The notes below the pieces were generated by a model that did not search any database, was not told the origin of the DNA, and worked only from the letters and a program-made list of their open reading frames with translations. Positions 17,301-20,195 of a stretch of DNA of 64,000 bases are shown here, in pieces. A program made the translations under genes and the position numbers. This DNA is from Haloferax denitrificans ATCC 35960 (lineage in GTDB: Archaea; Halobacteriota; Halobacteria; Halobacteriales; Haloferacaceae): NCBI RefSeq assembly GCF_000337795.1, contig NZ_AOLP01000019.1, forward strand, positions 310,001 to 374,000. The letters are read 5' to 3'. Each line of letters opens with the position of its first letter. The first letter of the stretch is position 1.

Positions 17301-18077
17301 ATGCCCGACGAACCCGCAGAGAACATCAGCGGCGGCGCGAGCGGCGGCGGCCGAGAGACGGTGTTCGACCCCGCCGACCCCGAGACCGCGACGCGCGCCG
17401 AGGTCGTCGTCGACCGCCTCGGCGAGCGCTACTGGCGGAAGGCCTACGGCGGGCAGGGCGGCTTCGAGTGTCTCGTCCGAACCATTCTGAGCCAGAACAC
17501 GAGCGACAAGGCGAGCCAGCCGGCCCACGACGAACTCATGGCGCAGTACGGCGGCGGCGACCTCGCCGAGTCGCTGGCGGCGGCCGACCGCGAGGGCATC
17601 GTCGACGCCATCCGCTCCGGCGGGCTCTACAACCAGAAGTCGAAGCTCATCCAAGGCGTCGCAGAGGAGGTGCTGGCCGACTTCGGAAGCGAGGCCGACT
17701 TCGACCGCTACGTCCGCGAGGAAGCCCCCGCGACGGTCCGCGACCGGCTCTTGGAGATGAAGGGCGTCGGCCCAAAGACTGCCGACTGCGTCCTCCTCTT
17801 TGCGGGCGGGCGCGGCGGCGTCTTCCCCGTCGACACCCACGTCCACCGCATCGCTCGACGCATCGGACTCGCGCCCGCCGACGCCGACCACGAAGGCGTT
17901 CGGGCGGCGCTCGAACGCGACATTCCCGACGAGAAGTGCGGCTTCGGCCACACCGCGATGATTCAGTTCGGCCGCGAGTTCTGCAAAGCACGCAAGCCCG
18001 CGTGTCTCGACGGGCCCGAAGCGTGCCCGATGGCCGACGTGTGCGAGATGGTCGGCGTAACCGACAACTCGGAGTAA
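17301..18077 (+). CDS. endonuclease III-like DNA glycosylase (paralogue 1)
   Basis: HhH-GPD base-excision enzyme of 258 residues. The helix-hairpin-helix with catalytic Lys is MKGVGPKTADCVLLF (near residue 153) and the catalytic Asp is in PVDTHVHRIARR. Four cysteines near the C-terminus are spaced C-X6-C-X6-C-X5-C, not the C-X6-C-X2-C-X5-C of classical Nth seen in the second copy at 51500, so the iron-sulphur loop has a four-residue insertion. The first 30 residues are a glycine-rich extension. CGTTTTTCACC about 30 bases upstream suggests a leaderless start. Substrate range (thymine glycol, uracil, mismatch) cannot be told. Confidence 0.87.
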   Translation: MPDEPAENISGGASGGGRETVFDPADPETATRAEVVVDRLGERYWRKAYGGQGGFECLVRTILSQNTSDKASQPAHDELMAQYGGGDLAESLAAADREGIVDAIRSGGLYNQKSKLIQGVAEEVLADFGSEADFDRYVREEAPATVRDRLLEMKGVGPKTADCVLLFAGGRGGVFPVDTHVHRIARRIGLAPADADHEGVRAALERDIPDEKCGFGHTAMIQFGREFCKARKPACLDGPEACPMADVCEMVGVTDNSE

Positions 18078-18181
18078 GAGACACAGTCTGGACTATCTCA
18101 AGAATGTCCTCGTAAGTCGGACAGTCTTGACGTTCGATATTACAGAGAAAACAATATGTGAAACGGATAGTATCATCCCGC

Positions 18182-19690
18182 ATGGAATCGACAGACCGAC
18201 TGATCGGTCTTGGAACTAAATCTGTTGCAGTCGGGGCGTTCATAATTGGATATGTTCAGTGGGCACCGAGCAGAATTGCGGAACTTCTGAACTCTCCGAC
18301 CTATATAGGGTATCTGATATCACTCCAGTTTGGACTCTTAGTCGTCATCGTATTCTCGATTTTGTACATTATCTCTCACCTGAACGAGGTCCAAAAAGAG
18401 ATCGAGGACAACATCGACCAGAGCGTTAATTATTACATCTCAAATTTGGATTCGATCAACGAGGAGTTCTTAGAGACGCTCCAAGACGGAGACGACGACG
18501 ACGCGGAAGAGCAACCCGAAGAGATAGCCACAGACGGCGGGTCCCAGCCGCTCGACACTCACGTCCAAAAGCCGAACGGCGACCCGGAAGTCAGTCAGCA
18601 AAACACGGCCGATGACGAAGAGGAACCCCGGTCAGAGACGGAATCCTTGAGCCGGCTAACGACCACGGGGCGAGGGATGTTAGTCGGAATCGTCGTCGGA
18701 ATCCCGCTTGGATTGTTATATTCTCTCGATGCGACGGTAATCGGTGGGCTACTCGGCGCGCTACTCGGAAACGAAATCGAATATCAGGCGATTAGACGGC
18801 AGGCACACCAGCGGGAACCGGATACCGATTACCGAACATCCAGTGAGGGTTCAAAAGATAAGATATTTGACATTTTGAAAAATTCGAGGCGACGATCAAC
18901 CATCCGGATGGTATCCCAGTCGGATTCACCACTGACTATCGAAGAGATCGCTGAGCGAATCGCCGCTCAAGAGAACGATAAAGCGCGGTCTCAACTGACG
19001 TCTGATGAGCGTCAAAGAGTGTACATCACCCTCTATCAATTGCATCTGAGGAAGTTGTCCGAAGAGGAGATAATAGAGTTTGACGAAGAGAGCGGAGTCG
19101 TCCGTCGCGGGGAACTGTTTGACCCGTATCTTCGTTCACTTCACGAATATATCCCAGAAAACGACTTAGGTCAACGGGAACTGGACAACTGCTTCCACAT
19201 CCTACAGAACGCACGGCGTAGAATGGTCATCGAGACCCTCGAAGACGTTGAATCTCCGGTCTCCATCGGCGACCTCGCGGAACGAATCGCATCCAACGAG
19301 ACCAATAAAGCGATTGGACAGTTGACCTCGTCGGAGCGAAAGAGGGTCTACACGGCACTGTATCAGGCTCACCTACCGAAGTTAGCCGACGCGGATGTAA
19401 TCGATTTCGACAAGCACCGCGGGAAAGTTAGCCGGGGAGACCGATTTGAAGACTATCTCAGAGCGAGTGCAGGGCGGAGGTCGCCGAGGAGACGATGGTT
19501 GAATACGAATCTGGAGCCACTCTCAGAGCCGATATACTATCTCTTCATCGGTGTCACAGCTATCGTCATCCTCCTCGGAAACGTCGGCGAGCTAGCGGTG
19601 ATCTCCAACATCAGTGCGAACGTCTGGTTCGCGATCTATACCGCACTGGTGTTCGTGCCGATTATTTATCGGTTTACACAGAACCCGTGA
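18182..19690 (+). CDS. membrane protein with two tandem winged-helix-like domains (accessory)
   Basis: A 502-residue protein in visibly AT-richer DNA than its neighbours. Hydrophobic helices lie near residues 22-45 and 48-75, a glycine-rich membrane pair near 168-205, and two more at the C-terminus (about 440-465 and 472-495). Between them are two homologous cytoplasmic domains (about 215-310 and 325-420) sharing the pattern (F)xILxNxRRR, IxxLAERIAxxExxKAxxQLTSxERxRVYxxLYQxHLxKL. This is the haloarchaeal DUF7344-type putative winged helix, usually single and soluble. A GTG at 18158 would add eight residues. No partner gene adjoins. A membrane-tethered transcription regulator or sensor is inference. 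Confidence 0.72.
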   Translation: MESTDRLIGLGTKSVAVGAFIIGYVQWAPSRIAELLNSPTYIGYLISLQFGLLVVIVFSILYIISHLNEVQKEIEDNIDQSVNYYISNLDSINEEFLETLQDGDDDDAEEQPEEIATDGGSQPLDTHVQKPNGDPEVSQQNTADDEEEPRSETESLSRLTTTGRGMLVGIVVGIPLGLLYSLDATVIGGLLGALLGNEIEYQAIRRQAHQREPDTDYRTSSEGSKDKIFDILKNSRRRSTIRMVSQSDSPLTIEEIAERIAAQENDKARSQLTSDERQRVYITLYQLHLRKLSEEEIIEFDEESGVVRRGELFDPYLRSLHEYIPENDLGQRELDNCFHILQNARRRMVIETLEDVESPVSIGDLAERIASNETNKAIGQLTSSERKRVYTALYQAHLPKLADADVIDFDKHRGKVSRGDRFEDYLRASAGRRSPRRRWLNTNLEPLSEPIYYLFIGVTAIVILLGNVGELAVISNISANVWFAIYTALVFVPIIYRFTQNP

Positions 19691-19763
19691 AGCCTTGAAA
19701 ACCCCCGCACGTCGTCCGTTCGAGGCGTTTTCCGATCGTGTCTCACCGCAGATGGGTGACTGA

Positions 19764-20195
19764 CTAACAGGACTTCGTTTCGAGCCCGCTCACCGGCGAG
19801 CCGTCGTCCTCGTAGCTCGATTCGACGCCCGAGTCGGCGAACATCGGGAGGTTCATCGAGTAGTCGTAGACGACGCTGAACCGCGAGAAGGGGTTCGAGA
19901 GGAACGCCGCGGCGGGGCCGACGCCGTCGAACGCGACGCCCGCCCGGAGTTGGACGATGGAGTCGTTACCGACGGAGCCGCTGGCTTCCATCCCGAAGCC
20001 GCCCTCGCCGCCGAGGTTCTCGAACACGGAGAGGAAGACCACGAGGTCGATACCCGCGCCCTCGCCGCCGATGTCGAACTGGTGGCCTTCGCCGGGGAAA
20101 CACGGCGAAGTCGCGGCGGTCGCGGCGGCGACCGGGGCGGTCGCGACAGTGAGAATCACGGCGAGCGTCAGGGACGCGCGAGTCGCGGCGTGCAT
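19764..20195 (-). CDS. exported protein of unknown function
   Basis: A 143-residue protein with a clear signal peptide (residues 1-27, MHAATRASLTLAVILTVATAPVAAA). The mature part has two cysteines, one right after the signal (CFPGEGHQF) and one as the final residue, which could form a disulphide linking both ends. Glycine-rich beta-like segments fill the rest. No motif of a known enzyme. It stands alone between converging genes. Confidence 0.68.
   Translation of the reverse strand: MHAATRASLTLAVILTVATAPVAAATAATSPCFPGEGHQFDIGGEGAGIDLVVFLSVFENLGGEGGFGMEASGSVGNDSIVQLRAGVAFDGVGPAAAFLSNPFSRFSVVYDYSMNLPMFADSGVESSYEDDGSPVSGLETKSC

Follow-up and report, generated by a model that had tools for sequence, protein, structure and literature searches.

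What can be learned about a solitary gene that encodes a membrane protein with two tandem DNA-binding-like domains, and that sits in an AT-richer patch of an otherwise GC-rich haloarchaeal sequence? The gene lies in a 64,000-nucleotide stretch from Haloferax denitrificans, referred to here as the window. The original prediction described two winged-helix-like domains in a membrane protein with no operon partner, and proposed that it might sense stress or phage. The questions are therefore how the gene came to be at this site, how the protein is built, and what it may do in the cell. Table 1 lists the features of the locus.

Table 1. Features of the tandem-DUF7344 gene, its island and the flanking genes (window coordinates)
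Feature	Position	Strand	Basis
nth, HhH-GPD endonuclease III; last codons changed by the insertion, ends VTDNSE (stop)	17301..18077	+	Pfam; alignment to G059
Inserted island, 1,699 bp, 51.5% GC; sole gene is the tandem-DUF7344 ORF	18059..19757		alignment to G059
Tandem-DUF7344 membrane protein ORF, 502 aa	18182..19690	+	Pfam PF24035, E=4.7e-53
Two N-terminal hydrophobic segments, residues 7-25 and 39-71, continuing as a long helix to residue 103	18200..18394	+	hydropathy; AF2
Acidic disordered linker, residues 104-162, net charge -16, TDGG motif	18491..18667	+	AF2 pLDDT <50
Glycine-zipper hydrophobic hairpin, residues 163-208, with GNEIEYQ	18668..18805	+	sub-threshold glycine-zipper models; haloarchaeal relatives
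First DUF7344 winged-helix domain, residues 222-323	18845..19150	+	Pfam, AF2
Second DUF7344 winged-helix domain, residues 330-432	19169..19477	+	Pfam, AF2, Foldseek
C-terminal membrane helix pair, residues 446-500, standard for the DUF7344 family	19517..19681	+	hydropathy, AF2
DUF7332 gene, other flank of the insertion site	19764..20195	-	Pfam; genus genome comparison

An inserted island between nth and a DUF7332 gene

The reading frame is intact over all 502 codons, and an alternative in-frame start, GTG, is present at 18158. The gene stands alone, with nth upstream on the same strand and the DUF7332 gene convergent to it, and the absence of an operon partner is thus borne out. Its immediate neighbours are nth and the genes for the DUF7332 protein, an MGS-domain protein, a pilin-like protein and FttA. 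The AT-richer island is also real: GC content is 51–54% at the gene vs 64–71% in the surroundings, and the GC3 value of 0.60 compares with 0.83–0.94 for most other genes of the window.

Alignment to a second genome of the same species (G059) delimits the insertion. In G059, nth directly abuts the convergent DUF7332 gene, and the island of the window strain stands in place of 43 bp of this empty site; the two flanks are 95.3% and 96.7% identical between the strains. When presence and absence in related strains were compared, as had been proposed, the gene was not found at the nth/DUF7332 site in 14 of 14 other genomes of the genus, one of which is the same-species genome, and in most of them the junction is direct or nearly so. 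A transposon origin of the island was considered and set aside, as there is no recognised terminal repeat and no transposase gene, and the junction is a 43-bp replacement.

The nth gene has been modified at its end. Its native C-terminal tail, about 17 amino acids in G059, is gone (window 18020–18077), and the last residues are insert-derived. The 4Fe-4S-type cysteine motif of Nth (PF10576 match) lies upstream of the changed tail and is retained.

Two other genomes of the genus carry an unrelated single gene in the same gap. That of G013 encodes a TAT-signal protein (L052), and that of G008 a 298-amino-acid protein with N-terminal hydrophobic stretches and a coiled-coil-like sequence (L057). 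Because of these, the convergent nth/DUF7332 gap appears to be a small hotspot that repeatedly acquires foreign single genes. Across window positions 17301–20195, three unrelated single genes are seen in three genomes of the genus, and the others have little or nothing there (L052, L057, L195, L196).

Two winged-helix domains in one membrane protein

DUF7344 (PF24035) matches the whole protein with 177.9 bits, far above the curated cut-off of 27.8 bits, and the single copies, at window positions ~18866–19105 and ~19193–19429, score 99.9 and 89.3 bits and pass as well. The domain bounds first proposed, residues 215–310 and 325–420, are correct within about 10 residues. Aligned to each other and to DUF7344, the two domains are 46% identical and have in common a short gap near their ends. 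In a tree they are sisters (support 88/90), with both branches long and the bootstrap not settled. The two domains arose most simply by internal duplication.

Structure prediction and hydropathy agree with the expectation of a membrane protein with tandem winged helices. The AF2 model of domain 2 with the membrane pair (51 sequences) has a mean pLDDT of 85, rising to 94–98 within the domain, and its order of elements, H-H-H-H-E-E-H, matches winged helices. The best PDB folds found by Foldseek belong to the ArsR family (3f6o, 7p6f, HlyU and CadC of pI258), with probabilities of 0.95–0.98 and with E-values that are weak, about 0.07–0.2 and at best 0.07, because winged-helix (wHTH) domains are small. 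The nearest solved folds are those of ArsR/SmtB-type repressors (SrnR, HlyU, CadC of pI258; probability 0.96–0.98). Membership at the sequence level failed, with NF033788 scoring 18.2 bits vs a cut-off of 55, and a PDB sequence search with the window protein gave no match. The ArsR/SmtB-type winged-helix repressors are soluble. In the window protein AF2 places N-terminal helices at residues 2–35 and 40–103, and hydropathy marks a further, pre-domain segment at 161–192 besides the N- and C-terminal ones.

Helix 1 has RRR in both domains, and both also retain the R-x-R with which the recognition helix begins and a later Lys. Sequence-specific DNA binding is predicted from the fold together with these conserved basic residues. 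The wing Arg is retained in domain 2 and is changed to Ser in domain 1, whose wing is acidic (-3). With the conserved wing Arg gone and the wing acidic, domain 1 may not bind DNA. Of the two outcomes that were to refute the original prediction, a lack of the winged-helix fold or of DNA-contact charges and a gene conserved at this place in all haloarchaea, neither was observed.

Residues 330–498 are equivalent to an ordinary DUF7344 protein with two transmembrane (2TM) helices, which leaves domain 1 and the N-terminal module as the extra parts. Single-domain DUF7344 membrane proteins have the same wHTH domain, at about 35–59% identity, and the same C-terminal helix pair; they differ in that the domain is single and the N-terminus short and disordered. 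Three other proteins likewise have two DUF7344-like domains per chain: L162_11, the one two-domain protein in a family sample of 117 proteins from 87 loci, and L182_04 and L183_02. All three are soluble, with no membrane segments seen, about 220–300 amino acids long and strongly diverged in both domains, and they are not close to the window protein.

A search with the whole protein gave no close homologue in genome contigs, viral contigs or phages. Matches on plasmids are limited to the DUF7344 domains and C-terminal helices, and cover at most 57% of the protein, a figure that counts both domains as matched to one copy. In 171 family genomes there is no full-length or co-linear relative, and the best match there to the two domains and membrane helices is a single domain with 93.6 bits vs 615 for self. 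What distinguishes the window protein is the domain duplication combined with the N-terminal module of 2TM, acidic linker and glycine zipper. The gene is foreign and strain-specific, and its arrangement is so far without a second example in this common haloarchaeal family.

This isolation raises the question of whether the gene is a chance fusion or a decaying orphan on mobile DNA, with little or no expression and no settled role. The N-terminal part likewise has no such relative in 293 genomes of the order, the domain 1 branch is long, and the second genome of the species is without the gene. Such an origin is nevertheless unlikely, since the 502-codon frame is open throughout, both domains retain their core residues, the linker has a haloarchaeal-acidic composition, and relatives of the separate pieces show the parts in the same order (2TM, TDGG linker, glycine zipper).

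The N-terminal module and its relatives

The N-terminal module matches no named Pfam domain, and the glycine-zipper models PF13488 and PF05433 remain below cut-off (13.5 and 15.7 bits vs 25 and 24.2). The glycine-zipper part of the AF2 model is of low confidence. A search of the 293 order genomes with residues 1–213 yielded five weak relatives besides self. A three-row profile of the module has matches in 17 of the 293, several of which are chance matches to unrelated glycine-rich frames. The 171 family genomes contain two other matches to the N-terminal part, both weak, and viral contigs contain none.

Credible relatives are found in G041 (L062/L072), G107 (L066, L093), G075 (L077) and G159 (L074), and a protein of G396 (L199) is related through the zipper part. 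Common to the credible relatives are the 2TM segment, a linker of the (T/A/P)DGG type and a glycine-rich hairpin that ends in G(N/D)xxE. The glycine-zipper hairpin recurs in haloarchaeal proteins whose C-termini differ; the G041 and G396 proteins have in common a C-terminal domain with ..YW.FEF.., unlike that of the window protein. The module of 2TM, TDGG-type linker and glycine zipper occurs alone or with varied C-terminal domains at L062, L066, L074, L077, L091, L093 and L199. Its status as a modular haloarchaeal family may be taken as a lead. Perhaps the whole unit, from 2TM and acidic TDGG linker to zipper and G(N/D)xxE, is an unnamed mobile membrane platform onto which C-terminal reading domains are grafted. 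Here the grafted part would be a duplicated DNA-binding domain, such that DNA located at the membrane, own or foreign, could alter the state of the hairpin. This is speculative and we regard it as quite improbable.

The hairpin might also be the working part of the protein. The wHTH pair would then serve in protein-protein contact or oligomerization, and the protein would be a membrane scaffold or an effector that, for example, alters membrane permeability in an abortive, conflict-type response carried on mobile DNA. Several observations are consistent with this: the hairpin is found in narrowly spread haloarchaeal proteins with differing C-termini, one relative (L194) adjoins integrase-like genes, the domain 1 wing has no basic charge, and the gene is alone on its island, at a site where other inserts also occur. 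We consider it rather unlikely nonetheless, as every glycine-zipper Pfam match is sub-threshold, there is no toxin partner, no defence family is matched except for an ArsR-type wHTH resemblance to Csa3, and the basic residues of the recognition helix are kept in both domains.

That resemblance, a weak one of the Csa3/ArsR-type wHTH with 18.8 bits, is all that PADLOC returned for the window protein. No defence gene is present among the immediate neighbours, and no known defence family was matched. The phage and viral-contig searches, together with PADLOC, give no support to a role in phage defence or phage sensing, and the suggested sensing of phage or stress is not supported.

The DUF7344 family, its neighbourhoods and a possible function

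No paper that names DUF7344 was found in the literature searched, and the domain is common, with 3–28 matches per haloarchaeal genome in seven genomes. Of the 117 proteins sampled, 94 carry a hydrophobic segment at the C-terminus and 0/117 carry one at the N-terminus; in a set of single-domain relatives, a C-terminal membrane segment is present in 38 of 38. The 23 without the segment include all eight from viral contigs and many diverged members. The evidence places most DUF7344 proteins among membrane-tethered winged-helix proteins. This reverses the view that the domain usually occurs alone in soluble proteins and that tethering is an unusual trait; it is the family norm.

Recurrent at DUF7344 loci are genes for GlmS-type SIS/glutaminase, DUF1616, flippase, GT1, GT2, NTP_transferase and DegT aminotransferase proteins, as well as for epimerase and GFO/IDH/MocA families and DUF7343 wHTH proteins. 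As these loci were not set against random loci, the only controlled statement comes from a distance test in seven genomes, with rotation as control. Of 40 strong DUF7344 matches, 14 have a GT1 gene within 20 kb, where 3.5 would be expected (p=0.0005, the lowest value that 2,000 rotations can give); of 31 weak matches, mostly of soluble size, 3 do vs 2.7 expected, which is no excess. At 10 kb the strong class gives 4 of 40 vs 1.9 expected, which is not significant (p=0.15), and the members within 20 kb of GT1 are a minority. In Haloferax, a DUF7344 pair is flanked by glmM and by a sugar nucleotidyltransferase/glmS pair, and H. mediterranei has one DUF7344 gene amid polysaccharide genes. These neighbourhoods suggest an association of the family with cell-surface glycan genes. 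The window gene itself is outside any glycan cluster, and a tie to glycans can therefore be drawn only through its family.

DUF7344 proteins are also encoded on eight viral contigs of IMG/VR, in some cases within small PadR-like/HVO_A0261-type wHTH operons, and the window gene is mobile. A membrane regulator tied to viruses, for instance one that resembles an immunity repressor or senses phage, could be imagined on this basis. It is very improbable, given that membrane helices occur in 0/8 of the viral proteins, that phages and viral contigs have no close homologue, and that family genes are mainly in glycan-type contexts. The viral contigs L173 and L179 show a small three-gene winged-helix operon that consists of a PadR-like gene, a DUF7344 gene without membrane helices and one of HVO_A0261 type.

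The most likely reading, which we hold with only modest confidence, is that the gene encodes a horizontally acquired, strain-specific, membrane-tethered DUF7344 protein that acts as a one-component transcription regulator with a built-in wHTH dimer. The even count of membrane passes would keep the two wHTH units on the cytoplasmic side of the membrane, where the covalent pair could function as a ready-made dimer on an operator and control a few promoters. Possible targets are its own promoter or, going by the family neighbourhoods, cell-surface glycan genes. The helices and glycine-zipper hairpin might sense a change in the membrane or envelope, and this would alter spacing or oligomer state and hence DNA binding, in the manner put forward for ArnR and other one-component regulators.

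ArnR and ArnR1 of Sulfolobus acidocaldarius are membrane-bound one-component regulators with an N-terminal HTH and two C-terminal transmembrane helices, and they bind promoters (PMC6396743). Like them, the window protein combines HTH and two C-terminal membrane helices within a single chain and has no separate kinase. ArnR differs in its HAMP and sensor domains, in its single HTH where the window protein has two wHTH units, and in belonging to another archaeal lineage. In the window protein no HAMP match lies between wHTH and membrane, where there is a short linker only, and the searches run showed no sequence relationship to ArnR. By analogy, the window protein may at most work like ArnR; it is not a member of the ArnR type, because the HAMP and sensor domains are absent.

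The class of membrane-tethered DUF7344 proteins linked to glycan loci is a more useful result than the window gene itself, since, through the association with glycosyltransferase (GT) genes, an unnamed domain yields a hypothesis on control of the archaeal cell surface that can be tested. Beyond this, the window protein offers a natural example of two covalently joined wHTH units and, possibly, a swappable membrane module.

Two further observations concern family loci. A conserved DUF7344-2TM gene pair in Haloferax genomes (L039, L060) has glmM/PadR on one side and the nucleotidyltransferase-glmS pair on the other. DUF7343 proteins, which have TSP3 repeats and a C-terminal wHTH (L108:10645-11937), recur in DUF7344 loci, and this suggests that they are a second class of membrane wHTH proteins.
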